DNA of 64,000 bases from Desulfonatronospira thiodismutans ASO3-1 (GTDB lineage: Bacteria; Desulfobacterota; Desulfovibrionia; Desulfovibrionales; Desulfonatronovibrionaceae): assembly GCF_000174435.1 (NCBI RefSeq), contig NZ_ACJN02000004.1, positions 248,001 through 312,000 on the forward strand, in the 5' to 3' direction. The notes below the pieces were generated by a model, which was given only the letters and a program-made list of their open reading frames with translations, was not told the origin of the DNA and did no database searches. How positions within the stretch are numbered: position 1 is the first letter of the stretch; each line of letters begins with the position of its first letter. The position numbers and the translations under genes were made by a program. Below, in pieces: positions 39,864-63,621 of the stretch.

Positions 39864-40040
39864 TTTATTCTTAAAAACCGTGTGTGCGCAGCACCAGTGT
39901 GAAGCCTGCAGGCTTCCCGTGCCAAACAAGATCTTTCTGGCACCCCAGTTGAATGCCCTGCGGGCTAGCTCATGAGCTATTCAACGGGGCAGGCTGGCAA
40001 CTCCGTTGCACACAGGCGGCTCTGCCGCTCACGGCCGGAG
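39864..40040 (+). repeat. Dispersed GC-rich repeat (family E), copy 4
   Basis: TTATTCTTAAAAACCGTGTG onward, with GTGAAGCCTGCAGGCTTCC, an inserted ACTCCGTTGCACACAGG and GCCGCTCACGGCCGGAG. It lacks the AAGCGCATTTTAGTCGG section of copies 1 and 3. An AGGAGGC/GCCTCCT hairpin precedes it at 39841-39857. Confidence 0.8.
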
Positions 40041-45085: not shown

Positions 45086-45817
45086 ATGAAACCAGCACAT
45101 TTTCTCGTCTATCTACTGTTTGCCTTTTTATTGGCCGGTTGCGCTGCTGGATATAAGGCGCCGGGGCCGGGGCAGCTCCTTCCTGATTATGATCCGAAAC
45201 TTTTTGGATACGAAATCCATGAACAATGGATGATGGAAGATGGCAGAGAGGTTATCCTTGCCGAAAATACATTTCTTTTCGCCTCAGATGAGTACGTTCT
45301 GAGAATAGGTCGAGCACGTGACAGAGGCCTGCTCGAATTGAAATTAAATGAAATCCACCGGGCAAAAATGTACAAACTGGACGACTTTTATGTTTATGAG
45401 GGGATCGGCAGGCATAGTGAAGATTGTCGATGGGTTGTAGAGATAGTACGCATCCGCGAAAATAGAGCACATCGAAATATTGTTGAGATAGGAGAAGACA
45501 GGAGGAAGCTTATCACCCGTAACGATGACGGTGACAGGCTTATCCTGGCTGTTATGGCCAGAGATCTGGACGACAGTGAATTCTGGGGGATTGAGCAACG
45601 CCGAGTGCGGAACCTTGCCCCCAATAGAATGGACTGGGAACACCTTGAATACTTCCAGGTGCAAGCTGCCAGGGCCTTCCAGGAGGCTGACAAAGGTAAG
45701 CATGAGCAGCAAGCACGCCAGGCTGTTGAAATGCAAAGAGTGGAAGGTATGGCTCCGGAGGGGACGGTGGAAGAGCCTGAAGATGATGGCAGAGTGATAA
45801 TAGACCTGGGGGATTAA
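45086..45817 (+). CDS. Lipoprotein, unknown function, paired with a membrane protein
   Basis: 243 residues with a lipobox LAGC near residue 18. The mature chain is mixed alpha/beta and highly charged, with an acidic C-terminal tail (EEPEDDGRVIIDLGD). I do not recognise the family. The next gene starts 5 bp after the stop, so both products likely act together at the envelope. Confidence 0.8.
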   Translation: MKPAHFLVYLLFAFLLAGCAAGYKAPGPGQLLPDYDPKLFGYEIHEQWMMEDGREVILAENTFLFASDEYVLRIGRARDRGLLELKLNEIHRAKMYKLDDFYVYEGIGRHSEDCRWVVEIVRIRENRAHRNIVEIGEDRRKLITRNDDGDRLILAVMARDLDDSEFWGIEQRRVRNLAPNRMDWEHLEYFQVQAARAFQEADKGKHEQQARQAVEMQRVEGMAPEGTVEEPEDDGRVIIDLGD

Positions 45818-45822
45818 GTATA

Positions 45823-47370
45823 GTGTCCAGAACAGACAAAGCTCCAGCCATGCCTACGAGGGATCTTCTTGTTATACTGGGTCTAACCTCAGTTTACCTG
45901 GTCGTTGAACTGGCTTTCAACGCCAGTCTGCTGGATGTCATGGGCACCAGTGTGTCTTCGACAGAGCTGGATCGTATCGAACATGTCGGGAGAATTCTGT
46001 GCGGCATTGCGGTTTTTTTATTTGTTTACGGCACTCTGCTTCTACCGACCATGAATAAAAAGCGGATCGGTGGTTTTGTCGGGAAGGTTATTGTCTTTGC
46101 TTCTTTTGGTCCCCTGATAATATGGGGGGCTTACGTCGGCCAGGAACGCCTGGTGGAGAGTATCGTTAAAAATTCCGACCCAGAATGGCGAAAGCAGGCG
46201 GTTCATCTAAGAGTAGTACAATCATCGCTGCTGGAAGACCGGGCTGAACTTAGCGGTATTGAGCTGTCCAGAGAGGACCTGGGGACACCAGAGGGCAAAT
46301 CTTTCATAGCCCTCCTTCCCTTTTATGGTTCAGGTCTGTCCAGAACGGACATTTTAAGCAGCGAGAATATAGACGCCCTGTTGAGACAGAGGGTTCGCGA
46401 AGAGATGGGCACAAGAAATGAGTTTCTGGATGAGGTGCGACCCAAGATAGGGGATCTGGAAAACGCTTATAACGAGTACGCTGACGCATCCGAAAGATAT
46501 TATGAGAGCCTGGCCCCGGGTATGGCCGATAAAAGAGCCCAGGAGAAATGGGAGGAATATGTGAGGAGGCTGGAGAGTGAGACGGGCAGGAAGCCGAACA
46601 ATGTTCCTAGACGGGCAGAGAGCCACGTGAGAGAAAAGGTACAGGGAATGGGAGTTCCTGTATCCAACTCCTGGAAACCCTACGATAGAAACGGGTTTAT
46701 TTCCGCATTCAAGAGAAATTATGACTCAGTGGTAAAAAACCGGTTCGATAGCGAAGTTAGGAGAAGGGTGGGCGGCAGCGTTAACCCAGGGCTTTCCTGG
46801 GATGAGTTCATCCGTGAGCCGGCTGTAGTAAGTTATATGAGGTCCAGAAGCGACATAATCAAGCAGTATGGTTTTCCGGACAAGCTGACTAACGAGGGTT
46901 TTCTGCAGCAATATTACGAGCCTGTTAAACGAAAAAAGATGGAGGAGTATGGCAGCTTGCTCAGAGCCGAAGCAGAGTTTTTTGCAGACGGAAAAAAGTA
47001 TGCTCAAGAGGGCAGAAAGGCCTTGTATGCCGTGGTCGTCCCACCGCTTGCCCTTTTCTTTTCAGTGACTGGAGCCCTGCTCCACGTCGTTAAAACTGCA
47101 AATTTTGCTTTCCGGCTGGTACGCATCCACACCTTGATCCGCTGGGCTGTCTGGATATGTGTCCTGGGTGGGACTCTTGCCTTCGTCAATACACAGTCTC
47201 TACCGAACAAAGTTACAGAGTCAGAGCTTTTCGAAACATTGGACAAAAGCTTAGCCTCAAAATATGGTCGGACAACTGCGTCGGCCATGAAATGGACCGT
47301 TGAGTTTCAACCTTATTTCTACCCCCGGAATAAAGCGATAGAATCCAGGCTTAACCTGATCAGGCACTAA
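45823..47370 (+). CDS. Multi-pass membrane protein with large soluble domain, unknown function
   Basis: 515 residues. The likely start is the GTG at 45823, with an alternative ATG at 45850. Three transmembrane helices lie at about 14-34, 57-76 and 88-104, a soluble helical domain of roughly 290 residues (110-400) contains no motif I know, and two more helices occur at about 400-420 and 437-455. The central domain is rich in charged residues (for example REKVQGMGVPVSNSWKPYDR). It is coupled to the lipoprotein gene just upstream. The function is unknown; the arrangement suggests an envelope complex. Confidence 0.78.
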   Translation: MSRTDKAPAMPTRDLLVILGLTSVYLVVELAFNASLLDVMGTSVSSTELDRIEHVGRILCGIAVFLFVYGTLLLPTMNKKRIGGFVGKVIVFASFGPLIIWGAYVGQERLVESIVKNSDPEWRKQAVHLRVVQSSLLEDRAELSGIELSREDLGTPEGKSFIALLPFYGSGLSRTDILSSENIDALLRQRVREEMGTRNEFLDEVRPKIGDLENAYNEYADASERYYESLAPGMADKRAQEKWEEYVRRLESETGRKPNNVPRRAESHVREKVQGMGVPVSNSWKPYDRNGFISAFKRNYDSVVKNRFDSEVRRRVGGSVNPGLSWDEFIREPAVVSYMRSRSDIIKQYGFPDKLTNEGFLQQYYEPVKRKKMEEYGSLLRAEAEFFADGKKYAQEGRKALYAVVVPPLALFFSVTGALLHVVKTANFAFRLVRIHTLIRWAVWICVLGGTLAFVNTQSLPNKVTESELFETLDKSLASKYGRTTASAMKWTVEFQPYFYPRNKAIESRLNLIRH

Positions 47371-47825: not shown

Positions 47826-50549
47826 ATGAAAATTTTTTTGAGTTATGGTCATGATAAAAACACACCTTTGGTTGAAAAAATCAAAGCTGACCTTGAAAAT
47901 CGAGGGCATGATGTCTGGATAGACACCTCAGAGATAAAATTTGGCGATGACTGGAGATGCAGTATTACTGATGGAATTTTGGAAAGTGACTGGATGCTGT
48001 CTTTTCTGTCTCAACACTCCACTCGTGATCCTGGAGTTTGCCTTGATGAGCTTGGTATAGCTCTCGGATCAAAAGGTGGGATAGTCAAGACAGTCCTGGT
48101 AGAGAAGGAAAAGGATGTAAAGCCTCCTGTTAGCGTTAGTCATGTCCAATGGCTGGATATGAGCAATTGGGAAGAAATCAAGGATCGTGATCCAAAGGAT
48201 TTTGAACAATGGTATAAAGGCAAACTGGATGAGATAGTCAGAGTAGTTGAGAGTGAGTCCAATCAACGATTTGCAGGAGAAATTGAAGAACTTCAGCAAA
48301 AATTAAAGCCGGTTTTATCAGATGCTCGGATATGGGGACTGTTGAAGGATGGTTTTGTTGGCCGAGAGTGGCTGTTTAAAATGCTTGAGGATTGGCGTAT
48401 AAATAATCAGGGCCAGCAGATCTTCTGGATTACCGGTGAGCCTGGAATTGGAAAAAGCGCCTTGTCAGCCTGGATGTCACACTACGGCAAGGTACATGTT
48501 GTAGCTGCTCAATTTGTTGAACATAATAAGCCCAATAAAAAAGATCCTGCTAAGGTGGTTCAGAGTATTGCATATCAATTAGCTACCAGACTGGATGACT
48601 ACCGAAAATTTTTGGTTCAGCTTCCTGTTCTTGATGAACTGGATAGTCAAAACGCCTTTGAACTTTTTGAAAACCTTTTAGTTAATCCTTTGCATTATGC
48701 CATATCAGGAAATCGGGAACCCTGCATCATCCTTATAGATGCTCTTGATGAAGCTGTTTCTCAAGGTCAAAACAATCTGGTTGAGTTCTTATCAGAGCAG
48801 GCCCAAAGACTGCCGGACTGGATACGGTTGGTGGTCACCAGCAGACCTGAACCGTCAATAATACGCAGGTTTTCCCATATTGAACAAGTAAAGATCGAAG
48901 CAGATGACAATCATAATATTAATGACCTTAGAAAATTTCTCAGGGTTTGGGCTGAAAATAACAAAAAAAATATACAGATGAAAGAACAAGAGGACAAAAT
49001 CATTGCTGCTTCAGAAGGCAATTTTCTTTATTTGCGGGAATTTTGTCGCGGTGTTGACCACGAATGGATCGATTTTGCAAGTTCAGATTCATATCCTCAG
49101 GGAATGACTGGTCTTTATACTCAATACTTTACACGCCAGTTTCCTAAAATTGAAGAGTTTGAAAAAAAGTATTTGCCAGTAATTGAACTAGTTCTGGCAT
49201 CTTCTCAGCCTTTGCCAGAATACTACGCCAGTGAGATACTTGGTTTGAAAGGTCGAGATAAAATGGAGGTATTGGAGCCTTTAGGCAGCCTATTTCCAAG
49301 GCATAATGACTCGATCGCCCCATTTCATAAATCCTTGAAGGAATGGATATGCGATGACAAACGTGCTGGATACTATTATGTGCCGATTGAAGATGGGCAA
49401 TACAAGCTTTGCAAATACCTTTGGAAAGAGGTATTGAGGTATGAAGGTGAGTCAATTATTCCTGAAGATTATGTTATAAGAGAACTGCCAGTACAGATTA
49501 AGAATCTAAGTAAAAACAAAAATTCGCTTCCAAATATTATCGATGAAAGTTTTAAATATGAAGAAAAAAGAAGATTAATAGTCCATATAGGAAACAAGCT
49601 TGTAGAAAGTGGCAGATGGCTTGAAGCTGAACAATGGAATGATATCAATTTAGATTTGCATAAATTGATGCTTGGCCACGACCATCCAGGTACAATTTAT
49701 GCGAGGCGTAAGCTGGCGGCTATTTTCAGGAAACTGGGTAGGTATGAAAAAGCCAGAGAAACGCTGGAAAAGGTACTTGAGGATAGTACCAGGATATTAG
49801 GACACGACCATCCAGATACTCTCACTGCCATGGCCCTCCTGGCGAGTACCTTGGGAGACCTAGGAAAGCATGAAAAAGCCAAAGAAATGCAGGAAAAGGT
49901 GCTTGAAAATAGAACCAGGATATTAGACCACGACCATCGAGATACTATCACTGCCATGGGCAACCTGGCGGGCACCTTGGTAGACTTAGGAGAGTTGGAA
50001 AAAGCTAGAGAAATATATGAAAAAGTGCTTGAGGATAGTACCAGGATATTAAGCCATGAACATCCATACACTATCACTGCCAGGAACGACCTGGCAGGCA
50101 CTTTGGGAAAATTAGGAGAGCATATAAAAGCCAGAGAAATGCAGGAAAAGGTGATTGAGGATTATACCAGGATATTAGGCCATGAACATCCATTTACAAT
50201 CACTGCCAGGAACAACCTGGCGACTTCTTTGAGAGAACTAGGAGAGTATGAAAAAGCCAGAGAAATGCAGGAAAGGGTGGTTGAATGTTTTACCAAAAAG
50301 TTAGGCCATGAACATCCAGATACTATCACTGCCAGGAACAACCTAGCAAATACTTTGGGAGGACTGGGCAAGTATGAAGAAGCCAGAGAAATACAGGAAA
50401 AGGTGATTGAAGGGTTTACCAAAATATTAGGCCATGAACATCCAGATACTATTTCTGCTATGAACAACTTGGCGGGCACCTTGAGCAATCTAGGAGAGCA
50501 TGAAAAAGCTAGAGAAATACAAGAAAATTTGTTTTATAATAAAAGTTGA
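47826..50549 (+). CDS. TIR-STAND NTPase-TPR protein, probable anti-phage sensor-effector
   Basis: 907 residues. The TIR domain (1-135) has the start MKIFLSYGHDKNTPLVEKI, the DVWIDTSEIKFGDDW box and a glutamate (E75 in VCLDELG) at the place of the NADase catalytic residue. A NACHT/STAND NTPase follows with Walker A GEPGIGKS (204-211) and Walker B IILIDALDEA (301-310). The C-terminus has seven 42-residue kinesin-light-chain-type TPRs (about 610-900), each with a GHEHPDTITARNNLA-like core. In such proteins the repeats sense a phage product, the NTPase oligomerises, and TIR depletes NAD. A strong AAGGAGG site supports the start. The defence role is inferred from architecture. Confidence 0.9.
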   Translation: MKIFLSYGHDKNTPLVEKIKADLENRGHDVWIDTSEIKFGDDWRCSITDGILESDWMLSFLSQHSTRDPGVCLDELGIALGSKGGIVKTVLVEKEKDVKPPVSVSHVQWLDMSNWEEIKDRDPKDFEQWYKGKLDEIVRVVESESNQRFAGEIEELQQKLKPVLSDARIWGLLKDGFVGREWLFKMLEDWRINNQGQQIFWITGEPGIGKSALSAWMSHYGKVHVVAAQFVEHNKPNKKDPAKVVQSIAYQLATRLDDYRKFLVQLPVLDELDSQNAFELFENLLVNPLHYAISGNREPCIILIDALDEAVSQGQNNLVEFLSEQAQRLPDWIRLVVTSRPEPSIIRRFSHIEQVKIEADDNHNINDLRKFLRVWAENNKKNIQMKEQEDKIIAASEGNFLYLREFCRGVDHEWIDFASSDSYPQGMTGLYTQYFTRQFPKIEEFEKKYLPVIELVLASSQPLPEYYASEILGLKGRDKMEVLEPLGSLFPRHNDSIAPFHKSLKEWICDDKRAGYYYVPIEDGQYKLCKYLWKEVLRYEGESIIPEDYVIRELPVQIKNLSKNKNSLPNIIDESFKYEEKRRLIVHIGNKLVESGRWLEAEQWNDINLDLHKLMLGHDHPGTIYARRKLAAIFRKLGRYEKARETLEKVLEDSTRILGHDHPDTLTAMALLASTLGDLGKHEKAKEMQEKVLENRTRILDHDHRDTITAMGNLAGTLVDLGELEKAREIYEKVLEDSTRILSHEHPYTITARNDLAGTLGKLGEHIKAREMQEKVIEDYTRILGHEHPFTITARNNLATSLRELGEYEKAREMQERVVECFTKKLGHEHPDTITARNNLANTLGGLGKYEEAREIQEKVIEGFTKILGHEHPDTISAMNNLAGTLSNLGEHEKAREIQENLFYNKS

Positions 50550-51106: not shown

Positions 51107-51778
51107 TCACTCTTGAATCATCAGCCATTCCTCAAGAGAATTTTCCCATCCCTCCTGTGAGGCTTCAAGGGGCATCTCCTTAGAATTATGGCCTGGCATT
51201 AAAAAGCGACTTCCTCTTTCTTGAACAAGAGGAAACCATAGTACTGGCTTGCTTGCTGTAAGGGTCATTTCAACAACATGGGCCGTTCCACCTGGACCTC
51301 GAGCTGGTTCACCGTCCCATAGTGCAATCATCAAATCGCACATATCGACAATCTTTCGGCCAACAGCTTGATATCCTTGGATTCCACTTCTTGGGTAATC
51401 AAGCTCAATTACACTGGATGCCTCAGACAGCAACTTTGCATATTCATCCAGGGACGTCTGATCCTGGAAATCCTTTTTATATTCATTGCGATTAAAGGGT
51501 AGGACACAGCATAGATTTAGTTTGTTTTTCAGTGCCTCTCTGGCAAAAATACGATCTGCCCCCTCTGCTAAGGCTGATACCATGCATATCTGGGGATTAT
51601 CCTGGGTATGAACAGCATTGAAACAGCTAGTTGAGAGCTTCTTGAGTACGATATCCAGAATCTGGCTTATAAATATTGAGAATTTACTCTCGATATTTGG
51701 ATTAAGCCTGTGGGCTCTATGTCCTGTTACTCCGATGGAAATAAGAGGTGATCCGGGTAGTTTGTATTTGCTGATCAC
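51107..51778 (-). CDS. SLOG-superfamily nucleotide-binding protein
   Basis: 223 residues from a GTG at 51778. The Rossmann-like core shows ISIGVTGHR at the N-terminus, the SALAEGADRIFAREAL helix, CCVLPFNRNEYKKDF, the long middle helix ending in VIELD, and MCDLMIALWDGEPARGPGGTAHVVEM with the glycine-rich ligand loop. SLOG domains bind or make nucleotide-derived signals and occur in many conflict systems. It lies 24 bp after the TM-RCK-RyR gene in the same direction, with no ribosome site, so coupling to that gene is likely. It may generate or sense the ligand that gates its partner. Confidence 0.83.
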   Translation of the reverse strand: MISKYKLPGSPLISIGVTGHRAHRLNPNIESKFSIFISQILDIVLKKLSTSCFNAVHTQDNPQICMVSALAEGADRIFAREALKNKLNLCCVLPFNRNEYKKDFQDQTSLDEYAKLLSEASSVIELDYPRSGIQGYQAVGRKIVDMCDLMIALWDGEPARGPGGTAHVVEMTLTASKPVLWFPLVQERGSRFLMPGHNSKEMPLEASQEGWENSLEEWLMIQE

Positions 51779-51802: not shown

Positions 51803-53671
51803 TTATTGCTGGCGGACTAATTTGAATTGGTTCGTTTCTATATACATTTTGACTATATGTGGCAGAGCTTTAATTATCGCAACATCTTTATCGTGTTCTG
51901 CCTCATCCAGTTTTTCATATTTTACGATAGTATTATTGATCTGCATAGGTTTATCTTTTTTTTCGTCGAACAACCAGTCATCAATCAGTCTTTCCATGCA
52001 GAATCTTTTATGTTCATTTTTTTTGAGATTTTCCATATTCTCATCAATCGCTTTTTCAAGCTCAATGATTTTCACTTCACTACTTGGTAATGTACTGGCG
52101 TTTGAACAAGGCTCCAGAGAGAATCCAATCTCCCGAAGCTTGACAAAAATATGATCACCTGAATGTCGGCTGGAGTATTGCTGAAAGTCAGTAAGCTTGA
52201 TCCATTCTTCATTCTTCAACTCTTTATATTTTTTAGAAAGTTCGATTTCAGAAATCTCTGAGTCTTTCTTATTGTTAATAACACCGTAAGCAGCATGTAT
52301 CATCATTCCGATGTTGTCTGATATCTCTCCAGGGTATTTCTCTTGTCTTCCAAGCATATCTTTCATAATTTGATAAAAATGGATTTTAGTATATGTTTCC
52401 CAGCTATGATATTTTATTAAAATTGTGTTATTATTCAGTTCAGGTAAACAGCAAACAACGTCAGCGTTTTGCCTAAGAACCTGTAAACATTGACTAATTC
52501 TATAGCTTGCATCTACACAACTGTAGTCATTGTCTCCAGTTACATATATTCGTGAAAAAGGGATATCTTCTCTCTCGCTCAATGCCCTTCTAATAATTCC
52601 TGGTGACGTTGAATTAGTATCATAATGGTAGAAAAGTATGTCTGCAATTGGAGAACGTCCTCCGTAAGCTGCATCAGCCTGGTCAAAGTTGAGTACTGGA
52701 TGTCTTGCAATAAACTTTTGGAACTGTGATTCATCATTGTCAAATAAGCTAATTAATAAAGGAGCATCCTCAAAAAAAACACAATGCCGCACGAGCTGAA
52801 GAACTGTTTCTTTTGCGAAATCTCCAAGTCCAACGATTCCTATGTGGACTTTTTTGTGGACTTTTTTCTTATATTTCTGGGAACTGATTGTGATTGGCGG
52901 GTACTCAATCAGCAATTTTCGAGCTGCTAATGATTTTGCGCTAAACCAGATTATACCGCCGTCTTTTTCTCGATACTCTTGAAAATTAGGAATATGGCCA
53001 GCTATCCTTCGTAATGATTTGTCCTCAATATCAACAATTAATCTTGGTCGTTCTCTTTGTTTTTCTGGTATGAGACTTATAACCTTGGACGTTATGTCTA
53101 AATCAAGGTTATCGTCCCCTGTAAATATATAAATAGTATCGACCTTATTCAGCTTTAGCCGCTTAAGAGTATTGATATCCCTTGCATCACCATGCAACAA
53201 TATAGAATTGGGCCTTTCTCTGATTGATATAGCATATTTTTTATCAATGTTGATGTCCATGGCTATTATTGGTGTATCTTCATCCAAGCTTTGTATTATT
53301 CCAAAAGCCATCCTACCAGCACCTAAAAAAACATTTTTTCTTGGACTGATAGAATGTCTAAAGTAACATATCTGCTGACCTGCAATTTTAAACAAGACTG
53401 CTATAATAGAAAAGGCTGCAAACAAAGGCAAAGCAAATCTTGAAATTTGCAGTGGTATATTCATATCAAGCCTAGCTTCATGAAGGTCAGCGTTCATAAC
53501 GATCATCTGTAGTGCCTTATAAGCTGCATCAAGAAAAACTATATCATTTCTCATAAGACCTAATAAAGCTAAAATATAAAACAAAATAAATAATATTAAG
53601 GCAAAACATGCATGACGTAAGTCAACAAATTGCCCGATTTTCTTGTTAAGATTAATCTTTTTATCTTCCAT
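51803..53671 (-). CDS. Membrane protein with TrkA/RCK-like domains and a C-terminal RyR domain
   Basis: 622 residues. Two transmembrane helices (about 18-40 and 73-96) are followed by two Rossmann RCK/TrkA-N-like domains: the first has NVFLGAGRMAFGIIQ and IAMDINIDKK (110-240); the second has IGIVGLGDFAKETVLQL (about 272-430). The C-terminal region at about 560-610 matches the bacterial RyR domain pattern (EHKRFCMERLIDDWLF, then KYEKLDEAEHDKD). No potassium-filter motif (TVGYG) is present between the helices. RyR and SLOG domains have been predicted to sense nucleotide ligands in conflict systems. The likely role is a ligand-gated membrane effector; this is inferred. Confidence 0.83.
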   Translation of the reverse strand: MEDKKINLNKKIGQFVDLRHACFALILFILFYILALLGLMRNDIVFLDAAYKALQMIVMNADLHEARLDMNIPLQISRFALPLFAAFSIIAVLFKIAGQQICYFRHSISPRKNVFLGAGRMAFGIIQSLDEDTPIIAMDINIDKKYAISIRERPNSILLHGDARDINTLKRLKLNKVDTIYIFTGDDNLDLDITSKVISLIPEKQRERPRLIVDIEDKSLRRIAGHIPNFQEYREKDGGIIWFSAKSLAARKLLIEYPPITISSQKYKKKVHKKVHIGIVGLGDFAKETVLQLVRHCVFFEDAPLLISLFDNDESQFQKFIARHPVLNFDQADAAYGGRSPIADILFYHYDTNSTSPGIIRRALSEREDIPFSRIYVTGDNDYSCVDASYRISQCLQVLRQNADVVCCLPELNNNTILIKYHSWETYTKIHFYQIMKDMLGRQEKYPGEISDNIGMMIHAAYGVINNKKDSEISEIELSKKYKELKNEEWIKLTDFQQYSSRHSGDHIFVKLREIGFSLEPCSNASTLPSSEVKIIELEKAIDENMENLKKNEHKRFCMERLIDDWLFDEKKDKPMQINNTIVKYEKLDEAEHDKDVAIIKALPHIVKMYIETNQFKLVRQQ

Positions 53672-55278: not shown

Positions 55279-56205
55279 ATGCCGAGAATAGCCAGGTTTA
55301 TTCGAGACAAACAGCCCACTATCTACCACATAGTTTCCAGAACAGCTTTGCAGGGCCTGCCCATCAAGGACAAAGACAATGACTTCCTGCTGGGACTGAT
55401 CAAAAAGCTCAGTGCATTTTACTTTGTGGATGTGCTTGGGTTCGCACTTTTAGGAAATCATTTTCATCTGGTAATCCGCATATATCCTGAGTCTGATCCG
55501 ACTGATGATGAGATCAGGGAAAGGCTGCAGAAATATTATGGTGATGGGCTTAAGGTTACGGGATTGCTTATTTCAGACTACCGCAAACGACTGACCGATC
55601 TGGGCGCTTATGTAAAGGATATCAAGCAGGGGTTTACCAGGTATTTCAACAAGAAGTATGGCCGCAGGGGTTTCTTCTGGGGGGATAGATTCAAGTCCAT
55701 GATTGTTCAGGACGGGCTGAGCTTGGTTAACCTTCTGGCTTATGTGGACCTTAATCCTATTCGTGCTGGCATTGTGAAAAAGCCGGAGGACTACCGCTGG
55801 TGTTCTCTTGGCTACCATACTCAGACCGGGAATAAAGACGGCCTGCTGTCCATTGATTTTGGAATGAAGGAATGGAATGAGTTTGATCCATCAGAGATAG
55901 TCCGCAAATACAGGCAATTCGTATACGAAACAGGTGCTGTGGATGCCGGGAAAGGCAAGGTCATGGACAAAAAGATCGTGGAGAAGGCCAGGAAGAAGGG
56001 CTATAAAGTCAGCCGAGCAGAACGGTTTCGCTACCGTTGCAGATATTTTACTGATTCAGGCATTATCGGCGGCAAAGACTTTGTCCAGGAGGTCTTTGAC
56101 CAGGTCAAGCACCTGCTTAAGTCAAAAGATGAGCGGAAATTTACTCCGGTTAAAGGGGTAGATGGGGTTTTTTCTATGAAGCGGCTTATGGAGGTTGTAG
56201 AGTAA
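55279..56205 (+). CDS. REP-associated tyrosine transposase (RAYT, Y1/IS200-like)
   Basis: 308 residues. The HUH motif is GNHFHLVI (H61 and H63), and the candidate catalytic tyrosine lies in helix text around residues 111-122 (YVKDIKQGFTRYFNKKYG), followed by the RAYT signature GRRGFFWGDRFKS. LLAYVDLNPIRAGIVKKPEDYRW is also diagnostic. The C-terminal extension (about 200-308) is DNA-binding-like. RAYTs act on REP hairpins; such hairpins lie 440-715 bp upstream here. The ATG has AGGAGG upstream. The gene ends 28 bp from the convergent large helicase gene. Confidence 0.93.
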   Translation: MPRIARFIRDKQPTIYHIVSRTALQGLPIKDKDNDFLLGLIKKLSAFYFVDVLGFALLGNHFHLVIRIYPESDPTDDEIRERLQKYYGDGLKVTGLLISDYRKRLTDLGAYVKDIKQGFTRYFNKKYGRRGFFWGDRFKSMIVQDGLSLVNLLAYVDLNPIRAGIVKKPEDYRWCSLGYHTQTGNKDGLLSIDFGMKEWNEFDPSEIVRKYRQFVYETGAVDAGKGKVMDKKIVEKARKKGYKVSRAERFRYRCRYFTDSGIIGGKDFVQEVFDQVKHLLKSKDERKFTPVKGVDGVFSMKRLMEVVE

Positions 56206-56233: not shown

Positions 56234-59200
56234 CTATTCTCGATCATTCAGCAAAAGCGTATTGAGCAGATTAAGCTCAGTACTGGCCATGAAGTACCGA
56301 TCATCAAATATTATATCCAGCCTTGCCGGATCAGGGCTGCCAAGGGATATGGCAAATGGAAATGTTTCATATTCCGCAATTATGGGGATATAATGCCCGG
56401 CATGAGGCATGGTCCTGGAAAGGGCCTCTTTCCATTCTTCGGGATATTTTAAATTTACAGCTCTTTCCGAACCATCAATAACGGTCCTGCAGAACTGGGG
56501 ATAGTTCAGGGGGAGGCTTAGCCAGACATGGCGTGAATAGATATTCTTCTGACTTGAATAGGTCAGTCGTATGCTTTCGTTCTGCCTGGCAATCAGCCTG
56601 TAAATATCCCAGGCATGTCGTCTGAGATCTGTATTAATCCGATTATTACTGCCGATGTGTTTAAGCTGGCCAGCAAAGCTTTTTTCTTTTCTGGTATAAT
56701 CTGCTGAAAAAGTTTCAAACCTCTGGCTTTCCATGAATTTGCCGTCATCTTTTGACCAACTTTCAAGCCAGAAAGGCCCGATACAATAAATATTATCAGG
56801 CAGAACCGGGATACTGTCAGAGCTGCCTGGTATAAGCTTTCCCGTACTTGATTTTGCCTGCCTGATGAACTCTTTGATCTCCTGCATATCTGAAAAGCTT
56901 TTCTGCTCATTTAGAGGATTGTTCAGCTGAAAGTCATACCCTCCAAACAATTCAACAGCGTTTTTTACTGCTGCTGCCACCACCTTTTTTTCCTCTGTAA
57001 GGGTTTTTTCACGCAGCTTGAACGTGGTTCCTTCAGTAATGAAATCATGGACGGTCTTACTCATGCTGGTTGAAAGCTCAGAAAGACCGATCAACCCCAC
57101 AGGAACTATTGCAAAGCGTTTGCGTGACATACCGGCATCACCGGTAATTCTGGTATGGATTGTACCCCGGAGCATTATAATCAGGGTCAGGAGATCGCTG
57201 CTTCGGCGAAGCCAGAGCCTGATGTCAGTCTTCATATCTTCTATGGGCAGAAAATCGTCAATAAGCATGACCAGCTCTCTTGGAACTTCATCGCAATTAA
57301 TAACTTTTCCGGTTTCAGAATCAGTGCGGTGCCCTCTTCCCCTGTAGATCAGCTGCGCCAATTCCATCAGGCTGGACTCGATATTAAAACGCGGTATGGC
57401 GGCAATAATTCTCGTAGCCAGAGGAAAGGAAACTCCACGGGCTCCTGATGAGGTCATCAGAAAGACCCTTACTTTATCCCGGTTTTCCGGCTTTATTATT
57501 TGTTCTCTTTTGCTGGGCTCAACACTGGAGTCAATAATAGCCACTTCCCAAGGCTTGAACTCCAGCTGGTCTGAAATTTCAGCCGAGCGTTCCTCAAGAA
57601 GGCTGTCTCTGATTCTGGTGAGGAAGTCTTTGTGCTGAGCAAAAAAAATGGTCTGTCCTGCCCCTTTTCTCACAGATGCCATGATTTCATTTTTTGCACT
57701 GTTCAGCAGCAAATCTTCCGCCTGATCCCGTATTCTTTCCCGAATTGACATGGGGGTTCCATCCGGTCTTTCTCCAGGCTGGATATAGTGCAGCTTGCAG
57801 AGATACCTGACGGAAAGCTCGGTTGCAGGATAACTGTTGGTCATTATGTGCAGAACCTGCCTTGTTCTTCCCCCGATTTTAAAGGATGAAACTGCAGGTT
57901 TGAATGGATAAGATCCCGTGGATGGAGAGATGAGTACCTTTTCCGGAGCTCTGCTTTCGTTGGCCAGGTGACTTTCCATGATAAGCTCATTGCCCAGGCT
58001 GGCATCCGCAATAATAAGGTGTACTGTGAAAGGTGATCCTTCGGTGTCTCCGGCAAAAGGATCAATAAAATGCCTTTCCAGCCACTTTGTTATGGTATGA
58101 ACAAAAAGAGATCCAGATCCATCCCCGGCCACCTCATCCAGCATGACCAGAATATTTGGAAATCTTTCGGCCATTTTGAAGCGTTCAGCTTTTCCAGGAA
58201 CACTTTTTGGGTTGTCGTTGACAAAGATTTTGGAAAGGCTGTCTATGGTTGAGCCTTTGACAGTCTGTTTGTAGCTTTGCAGGGCTGCGGTCATTACAAT
58301 TCTGTTTATTCCGGGGTTTTCCCGGGCCAGCGATCCAGCGCTGGTAGCAATTGTCCTTAATACTCCTGGAACCGGTTTTTCCTGGACCATGTCGGTTCGC
58401 TCATCCAGGCTGGTTTTTCTGTTGCGGGAAGCCCCTGAGTAAGATTCAATATAGTCTTCCATTTCCGGTCCGGCCATCCATATAGTTGAGCTGCCCGGAA
58501 TAGTAAAATCATCTACACCTCTTACTATGGCAACACTGTTGATACGTGATTCTCCACCATCAACCTGGTAATAATGGGCGTATGCAGAAGCAGCATTGCT
58601 TATCAGTTTGGCATTTGTTGAAATGGTCAGAATGTCCTGCCCAGCGCTGCTGAACTTGGCATTGACATCCTTGTTGATGACCACTCTTGGGCTAAGGTAC
58701 AGAAAAAGGTAGCCCTGCCGATCTGAGTCTGTAAGAAAGTTTTTGACTGCTGTGGTTTTTCCAATGCCTGGGTTTCCCTCTAAGGCCAGCACATTAACCT
58801 GGCCTTTTTTACCAGCCTTAAGCCCGGATACTACAGCTGCAGCATGCAGGTCTCTAAGCGTACTTTTACCTTTTGTGCTTAAACCGGAAAATTCTGTGCC
58901 AATTATCTCCCTGGCATTTTTTCCCGTCCTCTCGATAAAATAAGAATCTGTCTTTTCATCGCTGCCAATAAGATCTTCAACCTCTTGTGAATGAACAATT
59001 GTGCTGGGCAGATAAAACCTGTCCAGCTTTTCCTGAAAATCATAGCAGATACTCTGGCCGGGGATGGGGAGCTCGTTTAAGTTTTTGCACTGCTTTTTGA
59101 AATCCGCCGGCAGTGAAGCAAGAAGCTGATTAAAGGCCATTTTGATTTCTTTATTCAATGCTTGGTCAGACTGCTGCTGCGTGGAAAACTTATCTATTGA

Positions 59201-60169
59201 TGTCTTTCGGTAGGTCTTGCCCAGCTGCTTCATCAGCATAGTTCGGGAATCATGAGTTTCACCAAGGTATTCTGCGGACAAAGATTCAATGCCTGCTGAT
59301 GTTACAGCCATAACTTTGGTGTTGACTGGTCCTTTAAAGATATTCTGACTTTTCAACAATGTGAGGGTGGTGTCAACATAAGATGCTCCCTGGCACAACT
59401 TGTAAAAAGGTTTGTCCTTGCTGGTAAATGCTGCCAGGTGGCTTGAAAGTGTGGGTGAAAGGTCAAACTTACCTTGGCTGAGCTCGGCAGTTACCCTGGA
59501 AAAAACTCCTCTTTTGTCCATCATGCCAACATAGCGGCTAAGCTCTTCAAGATGATCGTTTTCTCTAGAATAATCATAGGTTGCCTGGGGACAGAAGTAA
59601 GAAAATTCAAGTACAAGAAGATTGTGGGTTATGCTGCCTTTTTTGTTTACTGTGACCATAAGCGTAAAGTCTGACCTGGCAGGACCTCCTTTCCATGCGA
59701 GAATTCCGGGATTATCAGTCAGGTCGAGATTGAAGCATTTCAGAAAATTTACTCCAACCTGCTGAAAAGAATCGTTATGTTCAGTAAGGCTATCTCTGTT
59801 TTTTCCAGGAAGGGCCAGGGGACACCAGATGGCGTCAAGGGTCAACTTGTCTTTTTTACGCACTTTCAGGCTGGATTTGAGCGTATTCAGCCATTGTCTT
59901 ATGCATGACCATCCCAAACCATAGCCATTGATAAACATATGGGCCAATGCCTGTTCAGTATGTTCCTGCAAGGTCTGATCTATAATGCCGAGCTCCTGGA
60001 GCAGAGAGTTTTTAATGCTGGAGATCCTGCAGTTCTGCCAGTCTGACAGTTCCTGATGAGACAGGGAAAGAAGCTCTTCTTTGATTAAAAATGCCAGCAC
60101 TCCTCTTTTGACGGCTATCTCAAACGCCTGACCCCATAATGAAGAAGTATCTGTGATTGACTGGTTCAT
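56234..60169 (-). CDS. Very large SF2-like helicase/ATPase, second gene of an unrecognised two-gene system
   Basis: 1311 residues. The helicase core lies at about 455-960: Walker A EGNPGIGKTT (464-473), Walker B ILVMLDEVAG (673-682), a motif III-like IIADAS (719-724), the IFFAQHKDFL region (841-850), motif V SSGARGVSFP (907-916) and the arginine-finger motif VI QLIYRGRGHR (939-948). The N-terminal 450 residues include SDFTLMVTV...LLVLEFSY (about 166-191), reminiscent of nuclease-fold strands but without a clear PD-(D/E)xK. The C-terminal 360 residues are unrecognised. It starts 12 bp after the stop of the 1070-aa gene, so they form an operon. Its size and partner suggest a defence machine; this is inferred. 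Confidence 0.85.
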   Translation of the reverse strand: MNQSITDTSSLWGQAFEIAVKRGVLAFLIKEELLSLSHQELSDWQNCRISSIKNSLLQELGIIDQTLQEHTEQALAHMFINGYGLGWSCIRQWLNTLKSSLKVRKKDKLTLDAIWCPLALPGKNRDSLTEHNDSFQQVGVNFLKCFNLDLTDNPGILAWKGGPARSDFTLMVTVNKKGSITHNLLVLEFSYFCPQATYDYSRENDHLEELSRYVGMMDKRGVFSRVTAELSQGKFDLSPTLSSHLAAFTSKDKPFYKLCQGASYVDTTLTLLKSQNIFKGPVNTKVMAVTSAGIESLSAEYLGETHDSRTMLMKQLGKTYRKTSIDKFSTQQQSDQALNKEIKMAFNQLLASLPADFKKQCKNLNELPIPGQSICYDFQEKLDRFYLPSTIVHSQEVEDLIGSDEKTDSYFIERTGKNAREIIGTEFSGLSTKGKSTLRDLHAAAVVSGLKAGKKGQVNVLALEGNPGIGKTTAVKNFLTDSDRQGYLFLYLSPRVVINKDVNAKFSSAGQDILTISTNAKLISNAASAYAHYYQVDGGESRINSVAIVRGVDDFTIPGSSTIWMAGPEMEDYIESYSGASRNRKTSLDERTDMVQEKPVPGVLRTIATSAGSLARENPGINRIVMTAALQSYKQTVKGSTIDSLSKIFVNDNPKSVPGKAERFKMAERFPNILVMLDEVAGDGSGSLFVHTITKWLERHFIDPFAGDTEGSPFTVHLIIADASLGNELIMESHLANESRAPEKVLISPSTGSYPFKPAVSSFKIGGRTRQVLHIMTNSYPATELSVRYLCKLHYIQPGERPDGTPMSIRERIRDQAEDLLLNSAKNEIMASVRKGAGQTIFFAQHKDFLTRIRDSLLEERSAEISDQLEFKPWEVAIIDSSVEPSKREQIIKPENRDKVRVFLMTSSGARGVSFPLATRIIAAIPRFNIESSLMELAQLIYRGRGHRTDSETGKVINCDEVPRELVMLIDDFLPIEDMKTDIRLWLRRSSDLLTLIIMLRGTIHTRITGDAGMSRKRFAIVPVGLIGLSELSTSMSKTVHDFITEGTTFKLREKTLTEEKKVVAAAVKNAVELFGGYDFQLNNPLNEQKSFSDMQEIKEFIRQAKSSTGKLIPGSSDSIPVLPDNIYCIGPFWLESWSKDDGKFMESQRFETFSADYTRKEKSFAGQLKHIGSNNRINTDLRRHAWDIYRLIARQNESIRLTYSSQKNIYSRHVWLSLPLNYPQFCRTVIDGSERAVNLKYPEEWKEALSRTMPHAGHYIPIIAEYETFPFAISLGSPDPARLDIIFDDRYFMASTELNLLNTLLLNDRE

Positions 60170-60181
60170 TTCAATGATCCG

Positions 60182-63100
60182 TTAGGCGGTGCTTCTCAAA
60201 ACAGATGTCACTCTGGACAATACCGCGGGAAAAGATATGATTACGTTAGGTTTGCCAGGTCCTTTGATGGCATGCATCTCGCCCAGCCCACCTATGCTTT
60301 GGGGGTTTATCCAGTCATACGGGTAAAGCTTGGGCTGGATACTTTTGTTGGACACAGGCTTTTCAGCGTGCAGATAGTGCAGGCCCCTCAAGGCTGTGAT
60401 GATAGCTGGCCGCATTATTGATGACCTATCTGAGTCAATAATGGTAGCCCTTGCTTTTTCAGCCCATTCAACACTGGAAACACGCGAGTCAAACTCCAAG
60501 TAATAAGTACAGAATCCTGACTGAGGGCGTTCTTGTTCTGTTGCCACCACAAACAAAGTGGCAAAGGTATAAAAAGGTATTATTTCCCTGCCTGAGCTGA
60601 TTTTATTCCTTGCCTGAAAACTGCTGTGATCACTTGCCCTCTGGACTTCAAAGGCTTCAGGATGTTTGCTTTGTCCTGAAATACGTATTGCCGGAAAAAA
60701 ATCTCTACGAAAAAGATATAAGGTCAGTTCAGGAAATCTTTGGGCAGCTCTTTCAATAAAATCAGGCTTGGAATGAGGAGCATGGCGTTCAGCGGTTCTG
60801 CCGATTCGCCAGGTTCCATGGTGATGCCAAAGCAAAATAATATTTTTGCAGCCAACTCTCTCTAATCTGGATATTTCCTCAAAAACATATTTTGGATTAT
60901 CAAACTCACTTTCTCCCAGTATATTTAAACGCGAAGGTCCTTCTTCCAGTATCATGGCTTGAAAGGGATCTGTCTGAAGAAAGGCTGTATAACTCTTGGA
61001 ACTCATCAAAAACAATGAGTTACTTGTATCGCCGAATTGGTTGCATGGTCTGGTTGCATAGTTGAGTATTCCTATAGGCTCGAAATTGCTTACCTGTGCA
61101 TTGCCTGCATCTGTTTTCATGACCAGGGGAAATCCGGACAAAATGGCAGAACTTGCTCCTGTATTGCTGTATTTACTTATTTTATCCAGCACCAGGCCCT
61201 GCATGAAAACGCTTGATTCGTGGCCAAGTGTAAGTTCAAGGGCCTTAAAAACAGCATAGATGGCTTCGCTGCCTGAGGGAGGTTTATCAGTGCCGCCTTT
61301 ACCCTCTTTTTGCAGCCTGAGCATAAAAATTTTGGGCATTTCTTTGTGCTGGCCAGCAGAATTGATTGCAAGCTTTTCCCGAACCACCCACAGGGTAATC
61401 TGCATGAGTACGGCAAATAAAGTGACCAGAGCAGATCTCAACTGCATCTGTGCTTCTGATGGGTTTTCGCTCTTCAAAGAAAAAACTTCATCATCGACCT
61501 GGATAATGATCCCTCCAGTGTCACACCACTTAGGTACCCCTGCATCCATAACTGGAGTACCTGATAAGCCTCCGTCTGTAGGAGTGTGAGGGATTATTGA
61601 AACAGGCAGTATTGGCCCTTCAGGCTTTCTTTGAGCGGAAATGGAATAAGTCTTGGGATCATCCTGAACAAGAAGCAATTCGTTAAGTCTAGTTTTAATT
61701 TTAATGGAAAACAGCAATCCAGCAACAGTCGATGGCTTGGTGGTAATTTCAATATTTTTCAGCCAGGTTATCTTTTCATTTTCATTGTAGTCGGCAGGCT
61801 TGACAAAAAAATCTGTTGCCTCGCCTTCTGATGTGGCAAGTCTCTCCCAATCCACTACATCTTCCTGAACACAAATGTATAGATCTTCAATCTGACGTTC
61901 GGCCGATTTCAGTACCTGTCCGGACTTTTGCTGCAGTATTTTGATCAGGGCATTTGTGATTGATGAGTATGTACCTTCTTCTTCTAAGTCATTAAGTCTT
62001 TTAATTAACCTTTCAACTGGATCTATTTTAACATCACTTTGATTTAGAAATGATTTACATTTGAGAATAACATCATCAATTTTTAGAAAGTTCTGGGGAG
62101 ATGGAAAAACCAGAGATAGGTATAATAACTCCATTATATTGTGTTTATGGTTTGCATTGTAAGTATTTTTAGAAAAATAAAGTTCATCTTTGATGCTGTC
62201 TATACGGGCAAGTATGGCTTTTTTCCCGGCCTCCGGGTTGATCCCGTTAACACGAAATCTATACCCTACCTCCCTTAGGAGATGGTTGCCATCTGATGAT
62301 CTCGATTCAAAAAAATGAGATGAGGGGTGCGGCCATATGGGGAGGCATTTATAAAACAAGGCATTTCTTAACTTGTCAGATAGGTTGACTGTCCTGTCAA
62401 AAAGATTGATGCGGACAGAATTGCCAAGCTCAAACAATAATGTATCTTCTGTGTTCAAATATTTATTTTTTAATTCAAGGGCGTTATCAATATATCTGAC
62501 CAGCAGGGCTGAGTCTCTATCTTTATTGCCCTTAGCGTGATCCCTGATTTCTTTCATTATTGCAAAGCTGACTTCCAGCCTGACCCTGGCTAGAACCTCA
62601 TCTTCAAGAAAATTGTAAAACTTTTCTGTTTGACTCCCGGACCGCGCAGCTTCCTGATCAATATTGTTAATGATATCCTCGATTTCATCTTCCTCTGTCT
62701 CCATAATCTCAAGCTTTCTTCTAGCAGCAGTTTTGAAGTCATCCAACCATCCTGAAGCCTGCTTTTCTTCAATGCCGGTAATGACCCGAGCCACTTTTTT
62801 TGCATGACCGCTTTGCTTATGCTTTACTGGATCTGCAAAGGAAAGCTTGTTGAAAATCATGTTCATTTTTTCTGCGTCAAGCTTGTGTGATTTTAGGCTG
62901 CTGTTTATCTGAGCTACATAATCCTGAGCATTTTTAAAATATAAATCCTGCACATTGAGATTATTATCTTTCAGGCAGGATTCAATGAGCTTTTCTATTT
63001 TTCCCTTCAAGCCAAGTACAGATTTTGTTAAATCCTGCGCTTTGTCTGAATATATCTCCCCTCCAACAATGGTATCAATGGATTTCAGAGATAAATCAAC

Positions 63101-63394
63101 ATCTCTTATTAATCCTGAATTTTCAGAAGGTGTAAACTCCTGCGCAAAGTTTTTCCCTTTATCAATGCCTGACAGAATATTAACAGTGTTCATTATTAGG
63201 CTTGACGGCTGCTGCTTGCCTGAGTTGTTTTTTCTGGTCTTGCAGGAGAAGAAATTTTCAGCCTTGCTGTCAGATGTCAAATTGCCAAAATAGTCAAGTA
63301 CCTTCGAAAGATAGTCAATTACACTGACCAGATCAATGGAAGGATTCTTTTTTCGGATAGATACGCTCGCCCCGGTCTTTGTAAAATTATCCAT
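60182..63394 (-). CDS. 1070-residue protein of unknown fold, first gene of the two-gene system
   Basis: The start at 63394 has an AAGGATG ribosome site. The N-terminal 480 residues are largely helical and charged (for example KSVLGLKGKIEKLIESCL). The centre has strand-rich text including GGIIIQVDDEVFSLKSE, then a hydrophobic helix (ALVTLFAVLMQITLWVV). The C-terminal third has IILLWHHHGTWRIGRTAERH, LYLFRRDFFPAIRIS and DSDRSSIMRPAIITALRGL, a mixed alpha/beta domain with conserved-looking His/Arg residues. I do not recognise a family; the end is loosely PIWI-like in layout, but no catalytic tetrad can be assigned. It is co-transcribed with the helicase. Confidence 0.8.
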   Translation of the reverse strand: MDNFTKTGASVSIRKKNPSIDLVSVIDYLSKVLDYFGNLTSDSKAENFFSCKTRKNNSGKQQPSSLIMNTVNILSGIDKGKNFAQEFTPSENSGLIRDVDLSLKSIDTIVGGEIYSDKAQDLTKSVLGLKGKIEKLIESCLKDNNLNVQDLYFKNAQDYVAQINSSLKSHKLDAEKMNMIFNKLSFADPVKHKQSGHAKKVARVITGIEEKQASGWLDDFKTAARRKLEIMETEEDEIEDIINNIDQEAARSGSQTEKFYNFLEDEVLARVRLEVSFAIMKEIRDHAKGNKDRDSALLVRYIDNALELKNKYLNTEDTLLFELGNSVRINLFDRTVNLSDKLRNALFYKCLPIWPHPSSHFFESRSSDGNHLLREVGYRFRVNGINPEAGKKAILARIDSIKDELYFSKNTYNANHKHNIMELLYLSLVFPSPQNFLKIDDVILKCKSFLNQSDVKIDPVERLIKRLNDLEEEGTYSSITNALIKILQQKSGQVLKSAERQIEDLYICVQEDVVDWERLATSEGEATDFFVKPADYNENEKITWLKNIEITTKPSTVAGLLFSIKIKTRLNELLLVQDDPKTYSISAQRKPEGPILPVSIIPHTPTDGGLSGTPVMDAGVPKWCDTGGIIIQVDDEVFSLKSENPSEAQMQLRSALVTLFAVLMQITLWVVREKLAINSAGQHKEMPKIFMLRLQKEGKGGTDKPPSGSEAIYAVFKALELTLGHESSVFMQGLVLDKISKYSNTGASSAILSGFPLVMKTDAGNAQVSNFEPIGILNYATRPCNQFGDTSNSLFLMSSKSYTAFLQTDPFQAMILEEGPSRLNILGESEFDNPKYVFEEISRLERVGCKNIILLWHHHGTWRIGRTAERHAPHSKPDFIERAAQRFPELTLYLFRRDFFPAIRISGQSKHPEAFEVQRASDHSSFQARNKISSGREIIPFYTFATLFVVATEQERPQSGFCTYYLEFDSRVSSVEWAEKARATIIDSDRSSIMRPAIITALRGLHYLHAEKPVSNKSIQPKLYPYDWINPQSIGGLGEMHAIKGPGKPNVIISFPAVLSRVTSVLRSTA

Positions 63395-63621
63395 TTTTTC
63401 ATCCTTTTAAAATAAAGGTATTGGTTTTTTGCACTATGGAGACAAAGATCATGAATGAATTTTAAAGAAAAGGTTGGGTTGACAATGAAAGGTGATGATG
63501 TCTTTTTTGTTTCTGCAAATGGTAAGCATATATTTTTTTGAGCAGAAAAATCTATACAAGTCAAGTTCAGAATATTGAAAATCCTGGTCAAAATTCAAAA
63601 GGACATATACTTATTTAATCA

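Follow-up and report, generated by a model that had tools for sequence, protein, structure and literature searches.

What do two very large adjacent genes of the bacterium Desulfonatronospira thiodismutans ASO3-1 encode, and what could they do together? The question is raised by a stretch of 64,000 nucleotides of contig NZ_ACJN02000004.1 (positions 248,001 to 312,000 of the forward strand; hereafter, the window), on whose minus strand a gene for a 1311-amino-acid (aa) helicase follows a gene for a 1070-aa protein, referred to below as the partner. Our analysis revealed that both genes form a real and conserved system of two genes that had not been annotated before. Its main result is that the partner is, according to its predicted structure, a divergent Argonaute hidden to sequence searches. 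Taken together, the data make it probable that the pair is a guide-directed DNA interference system, composed of a nuclease-dead long Argonaute and a superfamily 2 (SF2) helicase carrying a Cas4/RecB-like nuclease.

A first-pass annotation, made from the sequence alone, had described two intact large genes 12 bp apart with good ribosome sites. Both open reading frames (ORFs) and the gap were confirmed in the sequence, and no interruption was found in either of the frames; regarding the ribosome sites, the description held for the partner gene, preceded by a clear AAGGA, but not for the helicase gene, where the site is weak (CGGA). The features of the operon are the following:

60182–63394, minus strand: partner gene, first of the operon, coding for a 1070-aa divergent protein of long-Argonaute fold (ORF, structural model, Foldseek, and VIA-align).
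56234–60169, minus strand: helicase gene, coding for a 1311-aa protein with an N-terminal nuclease-like domain, an SF2 core, and an uncharacterised C-terminal region (ORF; PF00271; Helicase_C in homologues).
60170–60181, minus strand: intergenic gap of 12 bp, CGGATCATTGAA (sequence).
63402–63406, minus strand: ribosome-binding site AAGGA of the partner gene (sequence).

The start of the helicase gene abuts or overlaps the stop of the partner gene in most relatives, which suggests translational coupling between them; in 43 of the 61 loci measured, 27–36 nt separate the stop of the partner from the codon for the conserved Trp12 of the helicase. In addition, the reading frames of both genes are kept across phyla at about 30–43% identity, far beyond chance.

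Sequence searches of Pfam, NCBIfam, and PADLOC, as well as profile searches against the PDB, provided no identity for the partner. Specifically, the window protein did not match the Piwi family (PF02171) at E ≤ 1, nor did this family appear in the list of the 25 commonest families of 42 homologues. The statement of the first-pass annotation that the partner has no recognisable domain is thus true of its sequence but was overturned by its predicted fold. The structure prediction that the same annotation had proposed was run with AlphaFold2 (AF2) on 52 homologues and yielded a model with a predicted local distance difference test (pLDDT) of 82.3 and a predicted template modelling score (pTM) of 0.85. 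When this model was compared with the PDB by Foldseek, the best 50 matches were all Argonaute or PIWI structures, with 64 matches at E ≤ 0.001 and a best match with E 5.4e-7 and probability 1.00. A second aligner, VIA-align, gave Z values of 8.8–10.8 over 310–450 residues, pairing residues from about 180 to 1064 of the partner with whole long Argonautes. Two domains and a guide-pocket-like motif were located in this way:

61100–61477, minus strand: MID-like domain, about residues 640–765, with approximate boundaries (model topology; aligned ranges of the Argonaute matches).
61196–61258, minus strand: motif resembling a pocket for the guide 5' end, Y713-x3-K717 ... E720 ... Q732-G733 (alignment of 52 homologues).
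60185–61099, minus strand: PIWI (RNase H-fold) domain, about residues 766–1070, with the catalytic Asp positions replaced (model topology; homologue alignment).

Within the MID-like domain, Y713 was conserved in 50 of the 52 sequences and E720, Q732, and G733 in all of them, while the fourth and last Lys of the MID guide-binding motif (Y/R-K-Q-K; Y[X]3K[X]nQG[X]nK) was not found in the partner alignment. From these residues, the guide pocket of the partner looks kept. As for the PIWI region, the strands and helices of residues 774–1069 in the model (b-b-b-a-b-a-b, followed by a two-strand extension and helices) are in PIWI order. The first catalytic Asp of Argonautes precedes the residues T-H-P. 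At the position where it would be expected in the partner (779), Tyr (50 of 52) or Phe was found before T-R-P, in a register derived from topology instead of a structural alignment at residue level. In the same register, the position of the second expected Asp (857) is occupied mostly by His, Asn, Gln, or Ser, with Asp in one sequence, and the adjacent position 858 is devoid of Asp; the window protein carries H857/H858, and the DEDX tetrad is missing. The PIWI domain of the partner is, from its residues, probably nuclease-dead and non-cutting.

With respect to the 1311-aa protein, the first-pass annotation had proposed an SF2-like helicase with intact motifs I, II, V, and VI and a DEVA Walker B, and the homologues bore it out. 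Helicase_C (PF00271) was detected over the Pfam cut-off in the window protein (E = 4.1e-7) and also in 32 of 37 helicase homologues, and the residues K471, D678, E679, R911, Q939, R943, and R945 were invariant in 50 of 50. Motif V reads TSSGARGVSFP (906–916), and the other motifs are located as follows:

58754–58780, minus strand: Walker A (motif I), GNPGIGKT region (sequence; homologue alignment).
58121–58138, minus strand: Walker B (motif II), DEVAGD, residues 678–683, with D678, E679, G682, and D683 in 50/50 (homologue alignment).
57332–57355, minus strand: motif VI, QLIYRGRG, residues 939–946, with Q939, R943, and R945 in 50/50 (homologue alignment).

By these motifs, the protein is an SF2 helicase with an intact motor. 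Beyond the generic Helicase_C match, none of the Pfam, NCBIfam, or PADLOC models accounts for it, the best match in PADLOC-DB 2.0.0 being GajA, with E = 0.012 over 68 residues, and none being obtained for the partner in this database. Profile searches against the PDB gave helicases as the only matches of the 1311-aa protein.

The N-terminal region of the helicase, which had been noted as possibly nuclease-like, was modelled separately (455 residues, AF2, pLDDT 86.4), and both its fold matches and a set of invariant residues agree with that suggestion:

59204–59848, minus strand: Cas4/RecB-like PD-(D/E)xK fold, about residues 108–322 (AF2 model; VIA and BFVD matches).
59378–59671, minus strand: putative nuclease active site, D167 ... 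E188-x-S190 ... K253, K257, Q260-xxx-Y264 (homologue alignment).

The list of VIA matches was dominated by exonucleases of the Cas4/RecB type: ACE1 (Z 6.2 and 6.1), Dna2 (5.7), MGME1 (5.2), the Cas4 protein SSO0001 (4.2), and RecE (4.0). The first of them, an Argonaute-associated protein of the Cas4 family (PDB 9iac, 9iab), also occurs with Argonautes. ACE1 is a stand-alone nuclease without helicase fusion, and what it has in common with the helicase N-terminus is a fold class. In the viral library BFVD, the best matches were rich in UL24, PD-(D/E)XK, and Cas4 proteins, with E values of 0.02 and worse. Independently of any model, D167, E188, K253, K257, Q260, and Y264 were invariant in the 50 helicase homologues, and S190 was present in 49 of them. 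In sequence terms, RecB/Cas4 nucleases have the elements D, D/E, and QxxxY, which D167, E188, and Q260-xxx-Y264 would represent here, and nuclease activity of this region is likely.

Do these two proteins belong together? A search of the genome collection with the helicase alignment found 244 encoded relatives, from which 77 distinct loci were kept; leaving out those with the helicase at a contig edge, 74 could be tested for pairing. The partner was directly upstream of the helicase in 70 of these 74, mostly in cyanobacteria and proteobacteria, so that the co-occurrence in other genomes that the first-pass annotation had asked to survey was indeed found. Of the four exceptions, L085 and L094 contain truncated fragments of the helicase, and L058 and L073 encode it at full length but have no partner. 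In L073 and L079, AcrB-like genes of about 1030 aa lie upstream, and these are not partners. Across 40 loci, the distance matrices of helicase and partner correlated with r = 0.98 (the maximum of 2000 permutations being 0.24), and 29 of the 33–34 well-supported splits were common to both trees; because of this, we conclude that partner and helicase are a real co-inherited unit, travelling together. A third core gene was sought among the ORFs of about 300–340 aa present directly downstream of the pair in Chromatium, Acinetobacter, and Acetobacter, but these were rejected because they are unrelated to each other, the one from Chromatium probably being a sugar-nucleotide reductase and that from Acetobacter probably the final part of a helicase whose frame is broken; the core thus consists of two genes.

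Within its own phylum, the partner was found in 1 of 297 sampled genomes, that of the window itself, and this patchy distribution fits horizontal transfer. Pairs were also encoded on plasmids of Cupriavidus, Acinetobacter, and Acetobacter, while those of Nostocales carried a divergent form; six plasmids with a helicase match were typed as conjugative. No carriage of the pair by viruses or phages was detected in IMG/VR or INPHARED. Split or interrupted frames affected one of both genes in six loci (L020, L022, L035, L069, L075, and L093), suggesting frequent decay of the pair, or assembly errors.

How could such a pair work? The most economical reading of its parts is that a guide-loaded, non-cutting Argonaute loads a helicase-nuclease on invading DNA. 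With its MID domain, the partner would bind a short guide; once loaded, it would find complementary invading DNA, either from plasmids, which may be the main target, or from phages. It would then recruit or license the 1311-aa helicase-nuclease onto the target through a presumed physical interaction, and the latter would unwind or translocate along this DNA, degrading or nicking it. There are precedents for such a division of labour: DdmE is an inactive prokaryotic Argonaute (pAgo) that binds DNA guides and recruits DdmD, which translocates and cuts (PMC12409362), a similar logic has been proposed for the Argonaute-like protein and the helicase-nuclease of ApsAB (PMC11096173), and a survey of pAgos notes that the dead ones commonly have a separate nuclease at their side, Cas4-type nucleases among them (PMC6299218).

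Several observations weigh against this interpretation. Regarding the partner, a profile search of the PDB finds no Argonaute, and profile–profile comparison with pAgo and pPIWI-RE families gave no signal, a result that is uninformative as pAgo and pPIWI-RE gave none with each other either; moreover, position 717 of the pocket motif is Gln in 44 of 52 homologues and Lys in three, including the window protein. Regarding the helicase N-terminus, Foldseek found nothing significant (E > 0.6), the VIA scores are modest (Z 4–6.2), and unrelated chains, the CamS sex-pheromone precursors, score equally (Z 6.6 and 6.2). Full-length helicases with no partner gene within the fetched flank (L058 and L073) may be either degraded loci or helicases acting alone. 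Finally, the usual catalytic Lys of the nuclease is replaced by Ser190, and because of this, the nuclease might be inactive. If so, the Argonaute would sense DNA and the helicase would displace or unwind it, leaving host nucleases to finish the work. The presence of Ser at the Lys position in 49 of 50 homologues speaks for this alternative; the strict invariance of D167, E188, Q260, Y264, K253, and K257 is hard to explain without catalysis, and displaced lysines are known among PD-(D/E)xK enzymes. We hold an inactive nuclease to be unlikely.

If the pair is a guide-directed helicase-nuclease, is it a new one? The first-pass annotation had found no match to a known defence system, and this stands as far as defence and family libraries are concerned, but the architecture does resemble DdmDE and ApsAB, from which we provisionally set the pair apart through their published descriptions and searches of the PDB and PADLOC. 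As in DdmDE, a DNA defence module of Vibrio cholerae, a long Argonaute, here probably inactive, and an SF2 helicase-nuclease share one operon. The differences are that the Argonaute gene comes first here and that DdmD has its helicase at the N-terminus and its PD-(D/E)XK nuclease at the C-terminus, whereas the nuclease-like domain of our protein is N-terminal; after residue 950, the sequence consensus (the consensus only) showed no conserved D...(D/E)xK or C-terminal D...DVK. ApsAB, an antiplasmid system of E. coli ST38, likewise consists of two genes, encoding a helicase-nuclease and an Argonaute-like protein (PMC11096173). The MID motif of the latter, ApsB, is Y[X]3K[X]nQG[X]nK, with an essential Lys (PMC11096173), and its Y[X]3K[X]nQG part has the shape found in the partner of the window, most relatives of which have Gln at the Lys position. 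In contrast, ApsA has its nuclease at the C-terminus (D1420...DVK) and motifs DELH and QAVGRVER, unlike DEVAGD and QLIYRGRG, and ApsB has been described as devoid of the PIWI RNase H fold (PMC11096173) that is predicted in the partner.

That the pair is just a divergent branch of the ApsAB/DdmDE family, with no claim to a separate class, would account for the common parts list and for the ApsB-like motif; given the opposite location of the nuclease, the different helicase motifs, and the PIWI fold of the model, we regard this as distinctly unlikely. Profiles of both proteins found no DdmDE or ApsAB chain in the PDB, nor was there a PADLOC match to DdmD or DdmE; the absence of DdmE among the best 50 structure matches of the partner excludes nothing. 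The opposite proposal is that the pair represents a third class of guide-directed helicase-nucleases, independently assembled and separate in origin from DdmDE and ApsAB, with its own families of dead Argonaute and SF2 helicase and a lysine-less N-terminal Cas4-like nuclease, wide in cyanobacteria and proteobacteria and absent from annotation libraries. For this stronger claim, we see the balance as even.

Two further comparisons concern the Argonaute itself. The partner resembles long-B pAgos in its layout from the N-lobe to PIWI, the MID motif, the loss of DEDX catalysis, and the associated nuclease, and differs from them in that PF02171 does not recognise it, in an N-terminal extension of about 180 residues, and in the replacement of D-x-T-H-P by Y-x-T-R-P. 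The second comparison is with the pPIWI-RE restriction system, of which the pair might be a variant form; in it, a divergent PIWI also adjoins a helicase and a restriction-like nuclease (PMC3702460), and one N-terminal homologue weakly matched pPIWI_RE_Y (E = 0.08). Nevertheless, these triads comprise three genes (restriction endonuclease, DinG helicase, and PIWI-RE) of different Pfam families (PMC3702460), in contrast to the two-gene order Argonaute–helicase of 70 of 74 loci, and PF13032 (RNaseH_pPIWI_RE) found 13 true members in genomes with the pair but not the partner. As the gene content differs and the family model finds real pPIWI-RE genes, this origin is highly improbable.

Is the pair a defence system at all? 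A defence function had been proposed for it from its context, and the surroundings, here and in relatives, support it, as does the conserved pairing. The island of TIR-STAND, RyR, and RAYT genes previously described was recovered in the window, where the neighbours of the pair include a TIR–NTPase–TPR protein, a TrkA_N/RyR protein, and a RAYT-like Y1 transposase, whose gene (55279–56205) is located tail-to-tail with the pair. In relatives, type I and III restriction-modification genes, Druantia-like DruE, a Gabija-like UvrD helicase, Lamassu and Zorya components, and WYL regulators were found nearby, mixed with ordinary genes. A role in DNA maintenance (replication, decatenation, or repair) or in plasmid competition would instead agree with the location of the pair on large and conjugative plasmids, and phenotypes in replication or division have been linked to a PIWI-RE protein (PMC10991935) and to pAgos of cyanobacteria (PMC10269773). 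The rare and patchy occurrence of the pair and its restriction-modification, Druantia-, Lamassu-, Zorya-, and Gabija-like neighbours argue against such a role, which we consider improbable.

Should the guide-directed interference proposed here be true, a widespread immune system would have been overlooked, with an Argonaute too divergent for any sequence model, and the pairing of a dead Argonaute with a helicase-nuclease would have evolved more than once, in different domain orders. Research would gain a new guide-directed DNA destroyer, and there would be an explanation for two very large genes now listed as "hypothetical" in many cyanobacteria, as well as in proteobacteria that are environmental or bear plasmids.

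Some additional genes were observed around the pair. In Acinetobacter, it is followed by a gene with an HNH-endonuclease domain and another with a WYL domain (L013:13998-20017), a possible lineage-specific extension; ORFs matching these genes in size are present at about 13980–16010 in L080 and L081. A WYL regulator is also located upstream of ddmDE (PMC12409362). A gene of 1781–1809 aa lies on the same strand about 110–120 bp upstream in two loci (L021:1331-6676 and L077:1242-6671), that of L021 matching Druantia DruE and that of L077 being alike in size and position only.

In the window, the 907-aa protein encoded at 47826–50549 (plus strand) combines TIR, an NPHP3_N/NACHT-like NTPase, and TPR, with weak PADLOC matches that include Avs1b, and is likely a TIR-STAND defence gene. 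The 622-aa protein at 51803–53671 (minus strand) joins a Rossmann domain (TrkA_N) to a RyR domain, as is typical of conflict systems predicted to sense nucleotides, and is followed by a 223-aa gene without PADLOC match (51107–51778). Two adjacent genes of 243 and 515 aa, 5 bp apart (45086–47370, plus strand), gave no convincing Pfam or PADLOC match. No RNA family matched positions 40000–64000, and no tRNA was found in the window. Beyond it, 323–338 kb of the contig hold further candidates: two large helicase genes resembling type IV methyl-directed restriction flank a 221-aa match to mad2 of MADS (L011:968-7683, about 324–331 kb), and a candidate defence gene of the PDC-S01 type lies further on. 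Finally, among the 42 genomes carrying the pair that were inspected, one or more true pPIWI-RE genes were found in 8 and ordinary pAgos in 9 (L095-L118), and several Argonaute-type systems thus coexist.

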